From Hyphococcus flavus (GTDB lineage: Bacteria > Pseudomonadota > Alphaproteobacteria > Caulobacterales > Parvularculaceae), in contig NZ_CP118166.1 in assembly GCF_028748065.1 (NCBI RefSeq), forward strand, positions 201,501-265,500: a stretch of DNA of 64,000 nt, in the 5' to 3' direction. The notes beneath the pieces were generated by a model. That model was not told where the DNA came from. It made no database searches and saw only the letters and a program-made list of their open reading frames with translations. Positions within the stretch are counted from its first letter, which is position 1; every line of letters begins with the position of its first letter. Shown here in pieces: positions 4,856 to 34,984 of this stretch. The translations under genes were made by a program, and so were the position numbers.

Positions 4856-4965
4856 GGCCCGGTTTCTCCTCGAGAATCCTGAATCGCTGCTATCATACCC
4901 CTCATAAGCCAGCCATCCAAGCTTTATGGCGCTTTATCGTTACAGTTTCACGAAACAGGTAAGAA

Positions 4966-5745
4966 TCAGCCAGCCGCGCGCGCGCCAGCCTCCGGGTTGT
5001 GCGACACCGGCGTGAAGACAAGCGCAGCGCCCTTTGCATCTTTTTCTAACAATCCGACATCATAAAACAGCGCAGATCCGCCTCTGGTTCCACCCGCCAA
5101 AAAAAACAGAATCTCTTCCACCCCGTCACTGTCGAAATCAGCGTTCGCCAACTCCTGCATCTCGACAAACTGATTATTTTCCGAAATGCGCCATTGGTGG
5201 GCGCTGGGCTGTTCGACAGAGAGTGGCGTTGATCCCCCTGCTTCTTCTCCGAGTCTCATAACGCTTCGAAGCAACGCCAAATCTTCCTTCGTGGGCGAGC
5301 CGTCCTGAAAATGGCTGCCGTTTGCGGGTTGGGCGTTCATCAGCGCAAACAAAGCGCCGCATGCCCTGATGAAATATCCTTCCCGGCGCATCTCGCGCGT
5401 TGTACCGGCGTACCAGCCATCGAAGGAAAGCTCGCGAAAAGCGCGACAGGTTTGAACCTCGCGCTGCGAAGTCATGTGGCCGCCAGGGTCGCTCATAACG
5501 AGCGTGACGGATTTCCCTTGAAGGTCGAGAATTTTTTGATCCTGCAGCGCCGACAGGTCAGCATGGCCATAACATCTCGCACTGGCGTCTTCGAACAACG
5601 GCATATCTGTCTTCAGGCAGATTTCGTAGGCGGATTGACTGGTCCGGGGTTGATCGTTGTCATCATCCAGCTGTTGCGTGACAAATGCTGCAACCGCCGC
5701 GCTCCCCGCGCCCAAGCCAATAGCAAGCGTTCTCAATGCGACCAT
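4966..5745 (-). CDS. Exported protein of unknown function with a Ca-loop-like motif
   Basis: 259 residues, no family recognised. A hydrophobic N-terminus (about 3-24) suggests a signal peptide or anchor. Five Cys are scattered in the first half. Near the C-terminus ANADFDSDGVEEILFFLAGG resembles FG-GAP or EF-hand-like DxDxDG calcium loops. Its ATG overlaps the stop of the upstream DUF1489 gene as TAATG, so the two are translationally coupled. Confidence 0.75.
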   Translation of the reverse strand: MVALRTLAIGLGAGSAAVAAFVTQQLDDDNDQPRTSQSAYEICLKTDMPLFEDASARCYGHADLSALQDQKILDLQGKSVTLVMSDPGGHMTSQREVQTCRAFRELSFDGWYAGTTREMRREGYFIRACGALFALMNAQPANGSHFQDGSPTKEDLALLRSVMRLGEEAGGSTPLSVEQPSAHQWRISENNQFVEMQELANADFDSDGVEEILFFLAGGTRGGSALFYDVGLLEKDAKGAALVFTPVSHNPEAGARAAG

Positions 5746-6179
5746 TACAGCAACCCCAGCTCAGCTAGCTCAAGCGCCAGTTCCGGCGGCGGAGACTTTT
5801 TTTGACTACTGGCCTCAATATCGCGCGGCGCTTCTCTATCCTGCAAGTACCGCCATCCCTGAAACGCGCGTCGAGGCGACGGGGCTGTGAGCACCAATGC
5901 CGGATCGAAGAGGATTGCCGTACGCTCGATCTGATCCTGCCCAATTCGCTTTTCAAATCCGATGATCTTTTGACGGGAGAGGATTACCCCCTTGATCACC
6001 CAGTAAATAGAACCGCCGTTTAAAAGCTCATCCGCGCGTCTCGGGTGCATACGGGTGACATGGTCGTGGCAGCGGCCCATGCCAGTTTTGATGTTTGCCT
6101 GCACACGCTTTTTGATCCAAGCGCGCAGATCATCAACGCCATTGGCGCCGACACAGAGCTTAACAAGATGAAGCGTCAT
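5745..6179 (-). CDS. DUF1489 family protein
   Basis: 144 residues, matching the whole of DUF1489, a small family conserved in Alphaproteobacteria. Typical elements are MTLHLVKLCVGA at the start, HVTRMHPRRADELLNGGSIYWVIKGVI in the middle and an RQKIIGFE segment. Function is not known. Its stop is fused to the start of the following exported protein (TAATG). Confidence 0.88.
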   Translation of the reverse strand: MTLHLVKLCVGANGVDDLRAWIKKRVQANIKTGMGRCHDHVTRMHPRRADELLNGGSIYWVIKGVILSRQKIIGFEKRIGQDQIERTAILFDPALVLTAPSPRRAFQGWRYLQDREAPRDIEASSQKKSPPPELALELAELGLL

Positions 6180-6212
6180 CCCGAGACAATAGCATGTTAG
6201 AGACTTATTTCG

Positions 6213-7184
6213 CTATTCAGCGACGCGCATGCGCGCGAGGTCCCGCGCCCGCTGACGTTTGAGATCGTGGCGCGCTGTGCGTTTCACAAGAATATAGAGG
6301 ATGAAATAGCACATCGCTGCACCAGTAGCGGACAGCCATATGGGCAGATTCTCAAACAGCGCAGCAAACCTGTCGTAGGAAAGACCCAGCGCTTCGGCGA
6401 TGCCAGGCGCTTCCTGCCCCAACAGCAAAATGACGCCAATACCGGTCAGCACGAACGCCAGCATTCCCGCCAGTAACGCGCCGATGGTGACGCCCATGTC
6501 GGCTCGTTCTTCAGCTTTCGAAACAATCATTTTCGACGGGTCGCCGGAAAGCGCCTGCGTCGCCGCGAACAATGCGCGCGTTCTCGCCGCTCTTTCCTCC
6601 GGCGCTAACTCGCGCTTGGAATCATGTTTGATTTTTTCAAAATCAACGAGCGGTTTTGCATTCATCACGCGGTCTGACACGAATTCCGGCTCGCACTCAG
6701 CCGCCGGTAGAACATCCGAGGACGGAACGACTAGCGCCGCATCAGTAGGCATCAGAAAAAGCGATTTCTCCGCCGCGCGTCTGCGCACAAGGCCGTCAAG
6801 CGTTGCAAGTTCGTTATTTACGAAAGCCTTGGTCCATAATTCAAAAGCGTTAGCGGCGCCAATCTTGTCGCCGGCATTCAGTTTACGAAGAACGGTAGAT
6901 CGCTTCCAATTATCTTCGCCAATATTGAATATTAACGAAACGAGCGCGTCATGTTCATTCTGATTAAGGGGCGCACGGACAGTGTCGCCTATGAGCTGCT
7001 CTATTGGCTGAACGTCATCTTTGAGGAGGCGTTCTGCATCACCTTCTGTGACGCTCATGCCGTGGCGGGCCGAACCTGTGTGGCCATAGCCAACAGTCCA
7101 TTGTTCAGTCGGCGCATAATGCGCAGACATGCGAAGGCCCTCATACCCTTTGATCAGATTAAGACCGGTCTCTCCCGTCCGCAT
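6213..7184 (-). CDS. Membrane-anchored GH24 (phage-type) lysozyme homologue
   Basis: 323 residues from the ATG at 7184; an ATG at 7214 would add 10 residues. Residues ~1-150 match GH24 endolysins: LIKGYEGLR carries the catalytic Glu, and WTVGYGHT the Thr and following His. Two C-terminal membrane segments follow (about 240-265 and 285-308). The usual catalytic Asp (AYxDP in phage enzymes) is replaced: the sequence reads AHYAP. Activity is therefore uncertain. No holin or phage genes nearby, so a chromosomal cell-wall gene is likelier than a prophage remnant. Confidence 0.82.
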   Translation of the reverse strand: MRTGETGLNLIKGYEGLRMSAHYAPTEQWTVGYGHTGSARHGMSVTEGDAERLLKDDVQPIEQLIGDTVRAPLNQNEHDALVSLIFNIGEDNWKRSTVLRKLNAGDKIGAANAFELWTKAFVNNELATLDGLVRRRAAEKSLFLMPTDAALVVPSSDVLPAAECEPEFVSDRVMNAKPLVDFEKIKHDSKRELAPEERAARTRALFAATQALSGDPSKMIVSKAEERADMGVTIGALLAGMLAFVLTGIGVILLLGQEAPGIAEALGLSYDRFAALFENLPIWLSATGAAMCYFILYILVKRTARHDLKRQRARDLARMRVAE

Positions 7185-7214
7185 TAGACCCGCTCTACCC
7201 CTCTCGACACACAT

Positions 7215-7610
7215 TCAACCATACCGGACCCGTTCGGATGGATAACCTTCTGGTTGATCCCACAGCTCCCCCCGACAAATACCGTTAATGATTCCTAACA
7301 CGAGATGGCCGGATTTGGTAGACGGATGGCATTCCCTAGGACATTTCACGGTCTAGAGGCGCCAAAACGGCACAGTCGGAGCCTGTCGTTAATGAGTTTT
7401 TACCTGCACAAAGGACGGGGGAGACCGGCTCAAAACGCATAATAAGCTGAAAAATATAGCATTTTTCGAATTCCCCTCTGCTCCCCTGACGCACAATTCT
7501 GGCACAATAATTGGTACTAAGTCCCTCGTAGAGCCATATCCGCCGGAAATGAGGGTGAAATTCCTCACTCTCAGCTATAATTCCCCAGGCGGGGGTGTCA
7601 GAGGTGTCTT
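7215..7610. other. Intergenic region between the lysozyme homologue and the split PEP-CTERM-like gene
   Basis: About 400 bp without a supported gene. Near the right end, 7551-7558 and 7565-7572 form an 8-bp hairpin with one G-T pair. TATAAT follows at 7576-7581 with no good -35 box, then GAGG about 8 bases before the ATG at 7611. A stretch from about 7305 looks faintly like a leucine tRNA D-arm but lacks a T-arm. Confidence 0.4.
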
Positions 7611-7838
7611 ATGTTGGGCAATGGGATCACAAACATCATCGCCGCCGCCATCATAGCGGTTGCGATCGTGTTCACCGGCGGTCTAGGCGGCGGAAAAGGG
7701 TCTTCGGGCATGACCGAAGAGGAATTCGCCGCTTGGTATGCGCGCGCAGTGGGCGATATTCGCAACGACATTGTCGTGAATTGCGGCTGTTGCGGCGAAG
7801 CTGAGGGCCAGCGGAGGGCCGCCGCCGATTCTTTTTAG
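7611..7838 (+). CDS. Small exported protein, 5' half of a probably frameshifted gene
   Basis: 75 residues. An N-terminal hydrophobic segment (NIIAAAIIAVAIVFTGGLGG) is followed by a short acidic region and a CGCC cluster (about 58-61). The frame ends at a TAG inside TCTTTTTAG (7830-7838). A shift of -1 at this T run continues without a stop through a proline-rich region to 8164, giving 184 residues with a C-terminal sorting-like tail. AGAGG upstream of the ATG fits a ribosome site. I recognise no family. Confidence 0.5.
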   Translation: MLGNGITNIIAAAIIAVAIVFTGGLGGGKGSSGMTEEEFAAWYARAVGDIRNDIVVNCGCCGEAEGQRRAAADSF

Positions 7839-8164
7839 CACCCCGCCCGGTTCCAACACGGCTCGCAGGGTATAATCCGGTTGAGCCAGTAGAGCCGAGG
7901 CGGGTTCCGCCAACCCCGGTATTGCCGCCGGTCCTGCCGCCGGACACGCCGGTGAGTACACCGGACGGGCCGCCGATACCGCCCGTGATCATACCGCCAA
8001 TTTATATTCCGCCGGTCGACCCGCCTTGCGACCCAGAAACTGATCCCGAATGCGAGCCGGAGGAGCCGCCTGTAGATGCGCCGGAACCCGCGCTTCCCTT
8101 GCTGCTGCTTATCGGCTGCGGCCTGATCTGGTGGTATCGCCGAAATTCGCTTCAGGCTTACTAA
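7835..8164 (+). CDS. Proline-rich segment with PEP-CTERM-like tail, 3' half of the split gene
   Basis: The frame is open from 7805. Read from 7835 it adds 109 residues; read alone it could start at 7922 (80 residues). The composition is strongly Pro-rich (PVLPPVLPPDTPVSTP, IPPIYIPPVDPP) with two Cys in an Asp/Glu-Pro segment. The end has the PEP-CTERM layout: PEP, a ~16-residue hydrophobic helix, then YRRN. Such tails are recognised by exosortase, but no exosortase gene is in view. Convergent with mgtE, overlapping its stop. Confidence 0.5.
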   Translation, partial: LAPRPVPTRLAGYNPVEPVEPRRVPPTPVLPPVLPPDTPVSTPDGPPIPPVIIPPIYIPPVDPPCDPETDPECEPEEPPVDAPEPALPLLLLIGCGLIWWYRRNSLQAY

Positions 8165-29093: not shown

Positions 29094-29618
29094 TTATGAA
29101 TGCGATGTGCGTTTCATGATCCATTCAGGGTCTGGATGCTCGCCAACCATGAAAAAGTAGTCGTGAATTTTTTCAAATCCGTGCCGCTTGTAGAGCTTTT
29201 GCGCACCTTTGTTTTCTGCGTAAACGCTGACAAAAACGTGCTCGAAATGTGCATCCAGCCAATCGAGAGCGAGGCGCAGCAACTTTGTGCCGACGCCCAT
29301 TCCATGCGCTTTTTCAAGCATATAGAGCCGTTGCAGTTCGCCTGCGTTATTCGGCAGGTCAGGAACAGGCAGATCACAGGGGCCAACGCTTGCATAGCCG
29401 ATTGCGTCGCCATCCTGCTCAACCAGCCAGGCTTGCGAACGGGGGTCACCCGTCAGTTTTTCGTAGACCGACGCATCATGCGATTTCTTGAGAAACGCAT
29501 TGAGATCGTCCGGCTTATAAAGGTGACCGAAAGTTTCGATAAAAGTGGATTTTCCGATTCGCGAAAGCGTCTCGGCGTCAGTCGGTTCAGTCTCCCGGAT
29601 TACCGGCGCTGACGTCAT
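29094..29618 (-). CDS. GNAT-family N-acetyltransferase
   Basis: 174 residues. Acetyl-CoA loop [19 protein letters not shown] (about 105-123), preceded by ELQRLYMLE and followed by [20 protein letters not shown], the usual GNAT order. Substrate unknown. Its ATG overlaps the nuoF stop by 4 bp (ATGA), so it is co-translated with nuoF. Confidence 0.9.
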
Positions 29619-30922
29619 TCCGCCGCAACGCCAGCCATGGAAACGTGGCCGCGGTCGGCGCGATAGTTGTTGATGCGCTCCTCGATCTCACCGCGGAAGT
29701 GACGGATGAGACCTTGTACCGGCCATGCGGCGGCGTCGCCAAGCGCGCAGATGGTGTGGCCTTCGATCTGGGTTGAAACCTCAAGCAGCTTGTCGATTTC
29801 TTCGGTGCTTGAGTTGCCTTCGGCCATGCGCTCAAGCACGCGCCACATCCAGCCAGTGCCCTCACGGCAGGGCGTGCACTGACCGCAGCTTTCGTGCTTG
29901 TAGAAGTAGCTGATGCGGGAAATCGCGCGGACAATATCTGTCGACTTGTCCATAACGATCACCGCCGCCGTGCCGAGACCGGACTTGTGCTCTTTGAGCG
30001 CATCGAAATCCATCAGCACGTCATCGCAGATGTCCTGCGGCAGGCACGGCACGGACGAGCCGCCCGGAATGACCGCTTTCAGGTTGTCCCAGCCGCCGGT
30101 GACGCCGCCGCAATGTTCGTTGATCAGCGTTTTGAGCGGGATCGACATCGCCTCTTCGACATTACAGGGGCGATTGACGTGACCGGAGATGCAATAAACT
30201 TTTGTGCCGTGGTTGTTCTCGCGTCCGAACTTGCGGAACCAGTCCGCGCCACGCCGCAGGATCGTCGGCACCACCGCAATCGATTCAACATTGTTTACCG
30301 TGGTCGGACAGCCATAAAGCCCCGCTCCCGCCGGGAATGGCGGCTTCAATCTCGGCTGGCCCTTTTTGCCTTCAAGGCTTTCAAGCAGCGCGGTTTCCTC
30401 GCCGCAGATATAGGCGCCGGCGCCATGGTGAACATAGACGTCAAAGTCCCAGCCTGAACCGGCGGCGTTTTTGCCGACGAGACCCGCTGCATACGCTTCG
30501 TCGATGGCGGCCTGAAGATTGTTACGCTCGTCCACATATTCGCCGCGAATATAGATGTAACAGGCATGCGCCTTCATGGCGAAAGAAGCGATCAGGCAAC
30601 CCTCGATAAAGAGATGCGGGTCGTGGCGCATCATCTCCCGGTCTTTACAGGTGCCGGGCTCGGACTCGTCAGCGTTGACCACAAGATAGTGCGGGCGCTC
30701 GCCCACTTCCTTGGGCATGAACGACCATTTAAGGCCCGTCGGGAAGCCGGCGCCGCCGCGCCCGCGAAGGCCAGAGTCCTTAACCTGCTGGATGATCCAG
30801 TCCTGCCCCAGCGCCATCAGGTCCGCCGTGCCGTTCCAGGCGCCGCGTTTCTTGGCTGCTTCCAGCCGCCAGTCATGGAGGCCGTAGAGATTGGTGAATA
30901 TCCGGTCTTTATCTTCGAGCAT
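29615..30922 (-). CDS. nuoF: NADH-quinone oxidoreductase subunit F
   Basis: 435 residues. NADH- and FMN-binding subunit: [20 protein letters not shown] (NADH loop), [28 protein letters not shown] (FMN), and the N3 [4Fe-4S] ligands in [12 protein letters not shown] with the last Cys in [14 protein letters not shown]. First electron acceptor from NADH. Confidence 0.97.
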
Positions 30923-31235
30923 CGCTTACGCCTGATAGAAGCTGTTTGACGGGTGTCTTAGCCGACTTCAGAAGCCAATGAAAACCCAGAAAGGGCAGAA
31001 AGGACCAGACCATTTGCCGCGAGAGGTGGGCAGAGCCTTACGTGATAGTTGAACGAGCCATTCGCAGGCAGGTGAGATAATCCATCTTGCAAAAAAGGCT
31101 AAAAACCACACTCGCTTCTAATCGGCTATGAAATAGCGATAGCGGCAGTTCTGATTCAGTTCCAGCCTGGTCGATTTTGTTCGCAGGAGTTTTACGAATC
31201 CACCTAAGCGTCACGAATAAATAGCTTAACGCACT
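30923..31235. other. Intergenic region upstream of nuoF
   Basis: 313 bp with no credible ORF. It should hold a nuoF promoter or leader, since the inserted NUDIX gene precedes it. A 6-bp hairpin (31231-31246) overlaps the NUDIX stop and could weakly terminate it. Nothing else is evident. Confidence 0.4.
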
Positions 31236-31799
31236 TTATGAAGTGCTGGCTTCTTCAAATAAACTCTTCGCAGGCGCTGCATGAGAAGTTTTCATGTCGC
31301 CATTTTGGAGGGCGCGTAATTCGCGTTTCAATGCTGCCCAAACGCCACCATGAAATCTGTCTTCCATCTCTTCAAGAGAAGCCCAAAATACATCGTCGGA
31401 TTTTGTTTTTTCCTGTACACAAGCTGTGGAGCGCTTAGAAACTGACCTGTCGTTGAAGTAAACATAGGTAAGCACTGCATTCGTAACAGGATGCTGGCGG
31501 ATACATAAACTCCGACCGCCACGAATGACAACCAAGCCTGTTTCTTCTTTGAGCTCACGGCGAGCCGCGCGACAAGGCGTTTCTTTTTTACCCTTAGTGT
31601 CGCATTCAATTTTCCCGCCGGGGAATACCCAACCCTTAAAGTCCTTACTTCCAGAGCGTCTAAGTAAAAGATATCTATTGTCGCTTTGGCGATGAACGAT
31701 CGCCAACGCAACTTCAGGCATATTTTCTTTGGTCTGGTTCATAATTGTATCTTCCAGACAATCAAATGGTAACTGGCTTTCATTTTCATAGTGATGCAT
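31236..31799 (-). CDS. NUDIX hydrolase (intact NUDIX box)
   Basis: 187 residues. NUDIX fold at about 28-150: LLLRRSGSKDFKGWVFPGGKIE, then a five-residue insertion, then ETPCRAARRELKEETGLV, which has the catalytic REL-x-EE-x-G core. Members cleave nucleoside diphosphates linked to another group; the substrate is unknown. Starts 9 bp after the stop of the cyclase-NUDIX gene, so the two form an operon and show a shared NUDIX layout (a HP-T motif after the box in both). An ATG at 31742 is a shorter alternative start. Confidence 0.85.
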   Translation of the reverse strand: MHHYENESQLPFDCLEDTIMNQTKENMPEVALAIVHRQSDNRYLLLRRSGSKDFKGWVFPGGKIECDTKGKKETPCRAARRELKEETGLVVIRGGRSLCIRQHPVTNAVLTYVYFNDRSVSKRSTACVQEKTKSDDVFWASLEEMEDRFHGGVWAALKRELRALQNGDMKTSHAAPAKSLFEEASTS

Positions 31800-31808
31800 A
31801 ACACACCA

Positions 31809-32840
31809 TCATATGTATTGTTCCAGATAAACTCTTATTTCAGGCGTCAAGTCTTTACCTATCATTTCAATTGCCTTTGCAATTGGAACAAATTTTACCT
31901 CTAAGTTTTCACCGGATTGGAGGTTTTCAGGCATTTTATCATCAAGAGGCTCCAAATGGTAGTAGTGACAATGCGCTCCTGTTAAGGGGTGTTTTTCAAT
32001 TTCGTGCACCTTTTGGTTGAACGCGCAAGAAACTCCAGTCTCTTGGAATACATGCTTAGCAGCAACGGCAGTAGCCTCCTCAGTGGGAACTCTTGTGCCA
32101 GACGGAAACATCCAACCTAATCCTTCCGTATTTTCTTTTCGCCGGACAAGAAGAACTTTTCCATCCCTAATTACGATTGCAATCACAACTTCATAATAAC
32201 CACTACTCATTTTTACGCTTGTGCGATGCTCCAATACTTCTTTACGACCTTTCAATGCATCAAAAATTTCCTGCTTTTCTGCTTCGCTAAGTGTTGTCTC
32301 GTTGCACCGCCTTAATACGTATAGCTTCTGACGCCCAGCTTGCTTGGGTAATTCCATCTCACCTATTTCATCGTAAGCAAAACTTTCAATACCTTGCCCG
32401 CGCTGAGCATCTCTCAAATTTATCATCGCTGTATCAGTCATCCATACACGACCCGGCTTAGTAATTGGCTCAATGCGAGCTGCAGTAATAATTGTATGGC
32501 CCGCTATTACGCCCCCTTCAGTAAATTTATCCTCGCCAGAAAAGTACTGCCCTACGTGTATAGAAATTCTAATTTGCAATGGTAATAGATGATACCGATC
32601 CCATCTTTCATGCTCAAAAACATCGCGCATAGCCAAAGCACGATCACAAAGATCGATGATGTTATTTGCCGCAATCACGATGCCATCACCCCACGTATTA
32701 ATATGCTTCAACTCTACGTCGTCGAGTAACTTTGCAACCTTTGGCAATATATTAGTGTGAAAGGATTTGATCTGATTATCGTTCAGGCTGCTATAGCCTT
32801 TCACGTCTGCAAATAACACAGAGGTTATTTCTGTCTCCAT
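31809..32840 (-). CDS. Class III nucleotide cyclase homology domain fused to a degenerate NUDIX domain
   Basis: 343 residues, soluble. Residues ~5-175 resemble class III cyclases: SVLFADVKGYSSLN (first metal Asp), INTWGDGIVIAAN (second metal Asp), GHTIITAARIEPITKPGRVWMTD (the transition-state Arg kept, the usual Asn absent). The adenine-contacting Lys position is Asn, as in the NTWGD subfamily. Residues ~218-335 are a NUDIX fold (VVIAIVIRDGKVLLVRR, GLGWMFPSGTRVP) whose box reads KHVFQETGV, so the Arg and two of the catalytic Glu of REUxEE are lost. GAGGGTGGG precedes the ATG. Product and ligand unknown. Confidence 0.82.
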   Translation of the reverse strand: METEITSVLFADVKGYSSLNDNQIKSFHTNILPKVAKLLDDVELKHINTWGDGIVIAANNIIDLCDRALAMRDVFEHERWDRYHLLPLQIRISIHVGQYFSGEDKFTEGGVIAGHTIITAARIEPITKPGRVWMTDTAMINLRDAQRGQGIESFAYDEIGEMELPKQAGRQKLYVLRRCNETTLSEAEKQEIFDALKGRKEVLEHRTSVKMSSGYYEVVIAIVIRDGKVLLVRRKENTEGLGWMFPSGTRVPTEEATAVAAKHVFQETGVSCAFNQKVHEIEKHPLTGAHCHYYHLEPLDDKMPENLQSGENLEVKFVPIAKAIEMIGKDLTPEIRVYLEQYI

Positions 32841-32891
32841 CCCACCCTCTTCTTAAAATTAAAGTAAACATAAATATCAGAGCTCAACCGA

Positions 32892-32903
32892 ATAGTCGAC
32901 TAT
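32892..32903. promoter_or_regulatory. Palindromic operator candidate upstream of the cyclase-NUDIX gene
   Basis: ATAGTCGACTAT is a perfect 12-bp palindrome, 52-63 bp before the start of the cyclase-NUDIX gene, within AT-rich DNA. Position and symmetry suit a dimeric repressor site. Confidence 0.35.
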
Positions 32904-32944
32904 GAGTTGGGCCGAACTATTAATCAGACTTGATTTTTATCTGC

Positions 32945-32965
32945 TTAGACTTTCCCCCAGTCTAA
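32945..32965. terminator. Hairpin after the thioesterase gene
   Basis: TTAGACT and AGTCTAA form a 7-bp stem with a TTCCCCC loop, 7 bp after the thioesterase stop (minus strand). No T run follows, so it may be a weak terminator or another operator of the downstream cyclase gene. Confidence 0.35.
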
Positions 32966-32971
32966 TAGCGC

Positions 32972-33421
32972 CTAGCGACTAGTTCCGGCCTGCAAATCAA
33001 GCAGCCGCGCAGTCTGAGATGCGGCGGCGACTTTCTCGCCCGCTTCATTGTATAGCGTCGCGCGGGTGAACGCCGTCGATTTCGTCATATGGACGAGTTC
33101 GGCTTCACAGATGAGGCGTTCGACACCCGCCGGCTTGAAATACTGTGTGTGAATATCGACCGATGCGGGCGCCTTGGCGCCATTGGTCAGCACCACCACC
33201 ATCGAACCCGATGCATCGTCGAGCATCGCCGTTAAAAACCCGCCCTGCACGCCGCCGCGCGGATTGAGCATTTCTTTCGTCCCTCTAAACGCGACGCGCA
33301 TGGTTTTCGCTTCGCGGTCGACGGACAAAAGCTCGTATCCTAAAAACGCCGCGCAGGCGGGCTGCGGGATTTTGTCGAGCGCCGTGCCCGATCCGCCGCC
33401 AAAAGTATTTTTCTCAGTCAT
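32972..33421 (-). CDS. PaaI-type hotdog thioesterase
   Basis: 149 residues, single hotdog domain. FLGYELLSVDREAKTMRVAF, then NPRGGVQGGFLTAMLDDASG. The PaaI family usually has His in the HGG turn; here it is Gln (VQGG), with the Asp of the next helix retained. Expected to hydrolyse an acyl-CoA thioester. Follows the PLP enzyme by 14 bp, so it is in the nuoE-linked operon. Confidence 0.85.
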   Translation of the reverse strand: MTEKNTFGGGSGTALDKIPQPACAAFLGYELLSVDREAKTMRVAFRGTKEMLNPRGGVQGGFLTAMLDDASGSMVVVLTNGAKAPASVDIHTQYFKPAGVERLICEAELVHMTKSTAFTRATLYNEAGEKVAAASQTARLLDLQAGTSR

Positions 33422-33435
33422 TGCGCCCGCGCTCT

Positions 33436-34737
33436 TTAAATCGCCGCAAGCGCCTGATCGAGATCGGCGATCAGATCGTCGGGATCTTCGACGCCCACGG
33501 AAATTCGTATCAGCGCTTCGGTAATGCCGAGCCGTAAACGCTCCTTGGGCGGAACATCGCTATGGGTCATGGCCGCCGGGTGCGAGGCGAGCGTTTCCGT
33601 TCCGCCGAGACTTACCGCCAGCTTGATGATTTTAAGCGCATTCAACACCTTGAACGCTTCAGCTTCGCCGCCGTTGACTTCAAAAGAAAAGGTCGAGCCC
33701 GGCGCGCCGCATTGGCGGTCGTAAATTTCCCGGTCCGGGTGATCCTTCGGCAGATAGTCGAGATACCAGACGCTTTTGACCTTGTCGTGACCGTGCAGGA
33801 AATCCGCCACTTTGCGCGCGCCTGTCGTCGAGGCTTCCATTCGCAGTTTTAACGTCTCCAGCGAACGCAGCAGCATCCAGCCCGTGTGCGCATCGCCCAT
33901 AGTGCCAAGGATCGTACGCATCACCTGCACCGGACCAGTCCAGCTTTCAGCGCCCGAACATGAACCGGCGATCAGGTCCGAATGACCACCCACATATTTG
34001 GTGAGCGATGTGACGGTGAGATCAGCGCCAAGCTCAAGCGGCGTCTGCCACAAGGGGCCAAGAAAAGTATTATCGACGATCACCGGCGGACGTTTGCCAT
34101 CCTTCGCCAGCGCTTCTGAATGTTTGCGCGCCGCAGCGATATCAACAAGACCATTGGTCGGGTTCGCCGGCGTTTCGAGATAGATGGCGCCGACACGTCC
34201 GCCTGTTTCATCCGCCAGTTTTTTCGCATCGGCGACAGCGGTGTTCATGCCAGCCGTCCCCTCCTCCGCATTGAAGCCGACACGCTTGATGCCGAAACTA
34301 GGGAGAATGTTGTGTACGAGATACTCCGTGCCGCCATAAACGGGTTCGGAATGGACGAGCGCATCGCCCGGCGTCAGGTAAGACCATAGAGACGTTGAAA
34401 TAGCCGCCATGCCGGACGCAAAGACGAGTGACTTTTCCGCCTTGTCCCAGACGGCGAGCCGATCCTCCAACACTTCGAGGTTGGGATTGTTGATGCGCGA
34501 ATAAATGAGCCCGATTTCCTCAGTCTCTTCTTTCTGGCGCAAGCCGTAGGCAAGCTCAAAAAACGCCTTGCCTTCTTCAGCCGACTGAAAAACAAACGTC
34601 GACGTATGAAAGACCGGCGGTTTTAGCGAGCCCTCGGACAGTTCAGGCGAAAATCCGTAGCCCATCATCAGGGTTTCCGGCGAAAGCTGACGGTTGCCGA
34701 GTATTCTCGCTTTATATTTCTTATCGCCGTTACTCAT
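33436..34737 (-). CDS. Cystathionine gamma-synthase/lyase family PLP enzyme
   Basis: 433 residues, fold type I. The PLP Lys is in TVTSLTKYVGGHSDLIAG; other family elements are YSRINNPNLEVLEDRLA, LVFASGMAAIST, EPVYGGTEYL, and IYLETPANPTNGLVDI. Members catalyse gamma-replacement or gamma/beta-elimination of sulfur amino acids; this longer subgroup is usually left unspecified, so methionine gamma-lyase or cystathionine synthesis cannot be chosen. Lies in an operon-like series with nuoE. Confidence 0.88.
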   Translation of the reverse strand: MSNGDKKYKARILGNRQLSPETLMMGYGFSPELSEGSLKPPVFHTSTFVFQSAEEGKAFFELAYGLRQKEETEEIGLIYSRINNPNLEVLEDRLAVWDKAEKSLVFASGMAAISTSLWSYLTPGDALVHSEPVYGGTEYLVHNILPSFGIKRVGFNAEEGTAGMNTAVADAKKLADETGGRVGAIYLETPANPTNGLVDIAAARKHSEALAKDGKRPPVIVDNTFLGPLWQTPLELGADLTVTSLTKYVGGHSDLIAGSCSGAESWTGPVQVMRTILGTMGDAHTGWMLLRSLETLKLRMEASTTGARKVADFLHGHDKVKSVWYLDYLPKDHPDREIYDRQCGAPGSTFSFEVNGGEAEAFKVLNALKIIKLAVSLGGTETLASHPAAMTHSDVPPKERLRLGITEALIRISVGVEDPDDLIADLDQALAAI

Positions 34738-34746
34738 ACGCCTTGC

Positions 34747-34977
34747 TTATTCCGTATTGGGTTTCGACGGCTTGAATGCGTCTCCATGCGCCTTGAACCA
34801 GCGGAAAAACATTGGTCCGAAAATCAAGGTTGATGCGATTATGCCGCCCATAAGATGCGTGATGTCTTGCGTGTTCACGTAGAAGGCGACAACAGCGAAC
34901 AGCACCGCCCCTTCGAGAATCGCAATATTGATCAGTGCGCGGATCGCAGCTTTTCGTTTTTGCTGATCCGGCGTCAT
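34747..34977 (-). CDS. Small two-helix membrane protein
   Basis: 76 residues with a basic N-terminus (MTPDQQKRKAAIR) and two membrane helices (about 14-35 and 39-59), ending in a soluble tail. No family recognised. Begins 7 bp after nuoE and ends 9 bp before the PLP gene, so it is very likely translated from the nuoE transcript. Confidence 0.72.
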   Translation of the reverse strand: MTPDQQKRKAAIRALINIAILEGAVLFAVVAFYVNTQDITHLMGGIIASTLIFGPMFFRWFKAHGDAFKPSKPNTE

Positions 34978-34984
34978 CGGCGGC

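Follow-up and report, generated by a model that had tools for sequence, protein, structure and literature searches.

A rare class III cyclase-NUDIX fusion paired with a second NUDIX gene in Hyphococcus flavus: a candidate imported signalling module

The 64,000-nucleotide window of DNA analysed here (contig NZ_CP118166.1, positions 201,501 to 265,500 of the forward strand) comes from the alphaproteobacterium Hyphococcus flavus and contains a pair of minus-strand genes that combine a nucleotide cyclase with two NUDIX domains. The first gene (31809..32840) encodes a 343-residue protein, in which a class III cyclase domain (residues 5-178; 32286..32840) is followed by a helical linker (residues 186-211 in the structure model) and a NUDIX domain, called NUDIX-A (about residues 215-343; 31809..32225). 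Such a fusion had been proposed from the DNA letters alone in the original prediction, and Pfam bears it out. PF00211 matches residues 5-176 with an E-value of 1.3e-10 and 41.6 bits, compared with a curated cut-off of 21.9, and PF00293 matches residues 218-323 of the same protein with an E-value of 1.5e-10, also exceeding its curated cut-off. AlphaFold2 and a full-length homologue agree with this layout. The second gene (31236..31799) encodes a NUDIX protein, NUDIX-B, recognised by Pfam with an E-value of 2e-15 and by alignment. Both reading frames are unbroken across 1.6 kb, and their ribosome-binding sites are plausible by eye.

The distance between the two genes depends on the start codon of NUDIX-B. 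The 9 bp given in the original prediction are correct for the longest downstream open reading frame, but not for the likely start, an ATG at 31742. This codon has a better ribosome-binding site ahead of it (TGGAAGATACAATT-ATG, by eye) and matches the first methionine of a homologous NUDIX-B from Rhizobium in the alignment. With the start at 31742, the spacer between the fusion gene and NUDIX-B is 66 bp. PADLOC matches one model only, PDC-S07, to the NUDIX part of each protein (E-values of 2.1e-6 and 1.1e-11). No description accompanies this model, which spans the NUDIX part alone, and we read its matches as general NUDIX similarity.

The cyclase domain belongs to a subfamily of which 31 of the 33 available domains were aligned, the partial sequences L100 and L115 being dropped; the window cyclase was also aligned to Rv1900c. 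Residues D12, D52, R122, and K166 are invariant in all 31 domains. They include the two metal-binding aspartates that had been noted in the motifs FADVKGYS (D12) and NTWGD (D52), the transition-state arginine, and K166, which we take to be the triphosphate-binding lysine, so that nucleotide-binding residues, the lack of which would have weakened the original prediction, are kept in the alignment. The subfamily signature, consisting of NTWGD, present in most members, and R-x-E-P, is found in the window cyclase. The first residue of what is presumably the substrate site is N48, and asparagine occupies this column in 26 of the 31 domains. The column of the transition-state asparagine contains serine in 14 domains, asparagine in 10, threonine in four, valine in two, and isoleucine in one, which is I118 of the window. 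The usual asparagine is indeed missing, as had been noticed, but this is no peculiarity of the protein: judged by the alignment, its loss is a habit of the subfamily.

Cyclases with other residues in this position have been described. According to an excerpt of PMC4886424, Rv1900c has a histidine instead of the transition-state asparagine and purported adenylyl and guanylyl cyclase activity, and mycobacterial cyclase-like proteins have a conserved isoleucine there. The cyclase Ma1120 has an alanine at the same position, as stated in an excerpt of PMC4215837. In our alignment, Rv1900c places an asparagine opposite N48 and its histidine in the asparagine column. It is also the top Foldseek match of the cyclase model, and the 50 matches listed are all class III cyclases. 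Because active cyclases also lack the asparagine and the core residues are kept, we expect the window cyclase to be catalytically competent.

The NUDIX box of NUDIX-A, established by Pfam, alignment, AlphaFold2, and Foldseek, reads G-x5-E-x7-KHVFQETGV; its degenerate part had been quoted correctly as KHVFQETGV. It contains K, H, and Q at the positions where R, E, and E are expected. The corresponding boxes are KEVLEE(T) in the Rhizobium homologue and KEVFKE in a same-genus genome, G002, and none of the three reads as the canonical REUxEE. Lysine replaces arginine in all three boxes, and a metal-binding glutamate is lost only in the window and G002. RExxEE is retained in all three NUDIX-B boxes. 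The catalytic RELKEE of the window NUDIX-B is thus intact, as had been claimed, but the loop before it is not canonical, with G-x10-E instead of G-x5-E, five residues longer; the Rhizobium NUDIX-B is canonical in this loop. In a small tree of 26 sequences, the NUDIX-A domains of the window, Rhizobium, and G002 form one clade with a support of 0.94, and the NUDIX-B proteins of the window and Rhizobium pair with a support of 0.79. The G002 protein (L005:1006-2043, L155) has a membrane-helix-like N-terminus joined to NUDIX-A and is followed by a second NUDIX gene; the two are located between rdgB- and hemW-looking genes (by eye).

When modelled alone by AlphaFold2 from seven sequences, NUDIX-A reaches a predicted local distance difference test score (pLDDT) of 84.6, and NUDIX pyrophosphohydrolases (2rrk, 3i7u) head its Foldseek matches. 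The nearest solved relatives are CTP, Ap4A, and MutT-type pyrophosphohydrolases. The idea that double-NUDIX modules are widespread was rejected: the NUDIX-A profile matched 10 of 397 other genomes of the phylum at 1e-9, each with a single NUDIX in the locus fetched and a MutT-like box (by eye), and none of 384 other genomes of the class at 1e-14. NUDIX genes on plasmids from three Streptomyces and one Tsukamurella were set aside as not fused; one of these loci, L109, has a second NUDIX gene about 0.5 kb away on the opposite strand.

Linkage of the two genes elsewhere, the lack of which would likewise have counted against the original prediction, is found once, on plasmid pRlX2 of Rhizobium beringeri. 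The plasmid encodes a full-length homologue of the fusion (99% query coverage, 42.7% identity), the sole case in 72,556 plasmid records, with a NUDIX gene 88 bp downstream. In the alignments, the window and Rhizobium sequences are 43% identical for the fusion and 36% for NUDIX-B. Around the Rhizobium pair are IS66 and ISL3 transposases and a gene for a type I methyltransferase; RES/Xre genes follow at about 10 kb. The 163-residue product of a gene beside the pair (L003:8507-8998) matches the C-terminal part of GajB with an E-value of 1.7e-31. Because the match spans only positions 463-605 of the 637 in the profile, the gene is a fragment of a Gabija helicase. Four of the further neighbours scanned have no match to a PADLOC model, and several neighbours match nothing. 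These surroundings hint at a possible defence island.

Searches for other fusions returned none in 385 genomes of the class, 299 of the order, and 398 of the phylum, which are overlapping samples, and a search of the own genome together with 59 relatives, of which 27 belong to the genus, added no further full-length match. The searches scored only the best few first-look candidates per genome, which limits their sensitivity. Some match was obtained in 24 of the 385 class genomes (own included), 32 of the 299 order genomes, and 19 of the 398 phylum genomes; apart from that of the own genome, these matches are confined to the cyclase or, for G002, to NUDIX. When 84,980 species genomes were scanned, non-exhaustively since only those matching either of two short peptide patterns were reached, 71 cyclase relatives emerged, none of which has a NUDIX match in frame with the cyclase. 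At one of the 71 loci, L077, a NUDIX gene lies about 2 kb from the cyclase match on the opposite strand, which was taken as chance. The cyclase listing includes, among environmental bacteria, L044 and L082, from a record titled as a Klebsiella pneumoniae metagenome-assembled genome.

A viral origin of the pair was rejected. The 50,697 phage records contain no relative, and neither the fusion nor NUDIX-A found a match in three scans of viral contigs. A two-sequence NUDIX-B query retrieved eight viral NUDIX loci, of which seven are placed apart from NUDIX-B in a tree and one, L161, beside it.

The pair occupies an AT-rich insert of 2,049 bp (30923..32971), recognised by its composition and by sites without the pair in related genomes. 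Its GC content is 43.7%, compared with 54.4% for the window, and the GC content at third codon positions is 38% and 40% in the two genes, compared with 74% in nuoF. An AT-rich insertion had been predicted directly between nuoE and nuoF. The composition is as described, but the placement is not exact: the insert lies between nuoF (29615..30922, minus strand, by Pfam), its downstream neighbour, and a thioesterase-family gene (32972..33421, minus strand, by Pfam) upstream, and a cystathionine-gamma-synthase-like gene (metZ by eye) separates the latter from nuoE. nuoF was recovered in 26 of the 27 genus genomes searched, own included, and the pair is missing upstream of it in all 23 other genus loci that contain the nuoF start and about 1.5 kb of upstream DNA. 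In L117 and L137, nuoF adjoins the thioesterase gene across a gap of about 0.3 kb, one of which contains a 90-codon reading frame. By its composition and its absence from relatives, the pair is an insertion of foreign-looking DNA, probably acquired horizontally.

The sister cyclases are joined to other domains. Six of their proteins were scanned for partners by Pfam, most other relatives being frames of 580-760 residues. Four of the six (L014, L113, L199, L200) contain TPR-S ('Tetratricopeptide Repeats-Sensor'). In L014, TPR-S precedes a C-terminal cyclase, with a SLOG-like stretch in between (by eye), and in L113 from Priestia, L199, and L200 the cyclase is N-terminal and TPR-S follows. The cyclase parts of these last three are below the Pfam cut-off and were found by a two-sequence profile (about 1e-30 for L199 and L200). 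The subfamily cyclase of Zavarzinella formosa (L016:7965-9041) is fused to a domain of the glyoxalase/VOC type, which is a further case of partner exchange, and that of a member of the Magnetococcales (L013:6453-7577), a close relative with 39% identity, has a C-terminal region without a Pfam match. With TPR-S, a glyoxalase-type domain, or no named partner in the six sisters, the partner position varies. Judged by Pfam, which recognises no TPR-S in the fusion, NUDIX replaces the TPR-S sensor in the window and Rhizobium proteins.

Some sister cyclases are found near TIR or Pycsar-effector genes. On the Priestia aryabhattai plasmid NZ_CP128553.1 (L113:1118-8490), a PycTM Pycsar-effector gene and two genes without a clear Pfam match precede the cyclase-TPR-S gene, and a RyR-domain gene comes after it. 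This set is flanked by an MBL-fold gene and a TIR-annotated gene, the portion of which within the locus has no Pfam match. Five loci with the cyclase-first layout of about 490 residues were fetched, TPR-S being confirmed in two and alike by eye in three. A TIR-domain gene is at most 0.8 kb away in three of the five: convergent in L199, divergent in L200, and on the same strand in L203. The pairs of neighbouring genes, one of cyclase-TPR-S layout and one with a TIR domain, are L199:1952-4741 and 4876-6348, L200:4006-4503 and 5262-6716, and L203:5278-6723 and 6796-8127; the TIR proteins are of the kinds TIR_2, ThsB_TIR, and FHA-GGDEF-TIR. Among the frames scanned in L201 and L202, no TIR gene was recognised. 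It is possible that the cyclase-TPR-S genes and their TIR neighbours form an undescribed Pycsar- or Thoeris-like system. To judge by these neighbourhoods, the cyclase subfamily seems designed for signalling in conflict or stress. No dedicated paper on it was found in the open literature.

NUDIX folds serve as ligand sensors in TRPM2, as the NUDT9-H domain, and in NrtR, and NUDIX enzymes cleave nucleoside diphosphates linked to another moiety, X. We tentatively favour the reading, possible rather than probable, that the pair is an imported two-gene signalling module, in which a cyclase senses through a NUDIX domain and NUDIX-B removes the ligand so detected, or a nucleotide related to it. The NUDIX fold would stand in the place of the sensor, tied to the cyclase by a helix able to pass its state to the cyclase dimer. 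NUDIX-A may bind a ligand of the nucleoside-diphosphate type, such as ADP-ribose, a dinucleoside polyphosphate, or an unusual nucleoside triphosphate, which would turn the cyclase on or off. The window NUDIX-A would have largely lost hydrolysis and act mainly as a sensor, and that of Rhizobium may still hydrolyse. The cyclase would produce a 3',5'-cyclic nucleotide read by receptors encoded elsewhere, and NUDIX-B would reset the switch by hydrolysing what NUDIX-A binds or a nucleotide related to it. Matches in the own genome number five for cyclases (fusion included), six, spread over five frames, for cyclic-nucleotide-binding domains, and one, above the cut-off and located elsewhere, for TIR; a receptor could therefore come from outside the pair. 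A single loop in which one nucleotide signal is made, sensed, and destroyed, as originally suggested, is chemically doubtful. Since cyclic 3',5'-monophosphates lack a diphosphate, NUDIX-B is not likely to end the signal by degrading what the cyclase makes, and we know of no NUDIX enzyme that cuts cyclic mononucleotides.

Several observations weigh against the favoured reading. The module is rare, with only two fusions found here, and in neither genome was a gene for a receptor or an effector recognised beside the pair. The Rhizobium NUDIX-A retains the three box glutamates (KEVLEET), so catalytic loss is not conserved; 'pseudo-NUDIX' is true of the window protein and not of the family, and the proposal that the degenerate box marks a designed sensor is not supported. 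In the tree, the NUDIX-B proteins of the window and Rhizobium are not specifically joined by the second NUDIX of G002. The full-length AlphaFold2 model, calculated from five sequences, has a mean pLDDT of 69.3 and is reliable in the cyclase core only. Most NUDIX blocks are below 60, residues 201-220 are below 40, and residues 101-130, which include I118 and R122, are at 61-66. The helix of residues 186-211 joins the domains in this model, its second half having a pLDDT below 50. Because of the low values beyond the cyclase core, no domain interface can be read from the model.

It is conceivable, if somewhat unlikely, that the pair is a Pycsar-type anti-phage module without a dedicated effector gene. 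Infection would shift a nucleotide pool, the NUDIX-cyclase would signal, and NUDIX-B, if toxic, would act as the effector, using up a nucleotide and halting growth. The Rhizobium pair, located between the GajB fragment and the type I methyltransferase amid insertion sequences, would suit such a role, as would the sister cyclase near a PycTM gene, the TIR genes adjoining three of the five cyclase-TPR-S-layout loci, the PDC-S07 match in both NUDIX parts, and the patchy distribution. However, the window copy lies amid housekeeping genes, PDC-S07 is a model without description that covers only the NUDIX part, and no match occurs in the phage records or in the three viral-contig scans that used the fusion or NUDIX-A. 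The evidence supports a defence role for the pair only indirectly. We consider it unlikely that both NUDIX proteins are ordinary housecleaning hydrolases, one of them tethered to a cyclase by an accidental fusion and, in the window, decaying. The near-canonical Rhizobium NUDIX-A box, unlike that of the window, and the pyrophosphohydrolases that are the nearest solved relatives agree with this explanation, but the fusion and gene order are retained in distant hosts despite the divergence of the sequences to 43% and 36% identity. The lysine in place of arginine in all three NUDIX-A boxes and the membrane-helix-like NUDIX-A of G002 with a NUDIX neighbour of its own also speak against it.

An inactive cyclase domain whose only role is to provide a scaffold for dimerisation or to bind a nucleotide, leaving the work to the NUDIX pair, is improbable. 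The substrate site with N48 and I118 is non-canonical and the usual asparagine is lost, but the metal-binding aspartates, transition-state arginine, and lysine are present in 31 of 31 domains. Moreover, Rv1900c, the closest structural match, has asparagine and histidine in the same two columns and is described as active in an excerpt of PMC4886424. Most improbable of all is that the pair is recently imported, non-functional cargo heading for loss. The own genome is the sole carrier among 28 genus genomes (own plus 27) and the insert is AT-rich, as such cargo could be, but the frames are intact, the ribosome-binding sites are plausible by eye, and both the cyclase and NUDIX-B retain their catalytic residues.

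The cyclase and both NUDIX domains belong to known superfamilies, and what is new is their combination with a paired gene; no described cyclase-NUDIX fusion was found in the open literature, by title and abstract start. TPR-S-linked class III cyclases belong to the same subfamily, with NTWGD in most, R-x-E-P, and the invariant D, D, R, and K. The window and Rhizobium proteins differ from them in carrying NUDIX, and no TIR, RyR, or PycTM neighbour was recognised beside either pair. Pycsar, composed of PycC and an effector, shares the small soluble class III cyclase, and sister cyclases are near PycTM and TIR genes; unlike in Pycsar, the scanned neighbours of the window and Rhizobium pairs match no Pycsar effector. 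Two structures of PycC, 6YII and 7R65, appear in an excerpt of PMC11224242; neither is in the best 60 of 68 PDB profile matches or among the 50 Foldseek matches listed, PycC sequences not having been aligned directly. As no effector gene adjoins the pair and the profile and fold matches listed show no link to PycC, we do not file the pair under Pycsar. Rv1900c (LipJ) resembles the fusion in its substrate-site asparagine, the lack of asparagine in the transition-state column, and the combination of a cyclase with a hydrolase-type fold; however, its partner has an alpha/beta-hydrolase fold rather than NUDIX, and the identity is about 24%. TRPM2 NUDT9-H and NrtR are likewise NUDIX sensors, but feed into a channel or a repressor instead of a cyclase. 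The NUDIX enzymes of the MutT, NudG, and Ap4A-hydrolase type resemble NUDIX-A and NUDIX-B in sequence and NUDIX-A in fold, and differ from the window NUDIX-A in its K, H, and Q for R, E, and E.

If the favoured reading is true, the cyclase would sense a nucleotide-type metabolite directly via a NUDIX fold, and two small genes would tie the NUDIX world of NAD, ADP-ribose, and alarmone turnover to cyclic-nucleotide signalling. In an excerpt of PMC7159879, the domains of conflict systems include cyclic-nucleotide cyclases and, listed separately, Nudix domains. A bolder and unlikely extension is that NUDIX-gated cyclases form a novel class of sensors for conflict or stress: TPR-S would have been swapped for a NUDIX fold that reads a NAD- or nucleotide-derived danger molecule directly, the partner NUDIX would destroy that molecule, and a diphosphate-type metabolite would be relayed into a cyclic-nucleotide signal. 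The pair also points to a cyclase subfamily with some members beside TIR and Pycsar-effector genes.

The perfect 12-bp palindrome noted upstream of the cyclase gene is present (32892..32903), but it was rejected as an operator or insertion mark, since 20 such palindromes occur across the window and its presence is at chance level. No convincing target-site repeats or insertion-sequence ends flank the insert, and the window contains no tRNA gene that could be the insertion site. The nuoE-nuoF spacer (30923-34984 in the window; L145-L152) differs in gene content across species of the genus. A role of the spacer as a defence hotspot was rejected, as the inserts of eight relatives are, by eye, ordinary-looking polysaccharide deacetylase-like, OmpA-like, and thioesterase genes; these unlike genes indicate that the spot varies.

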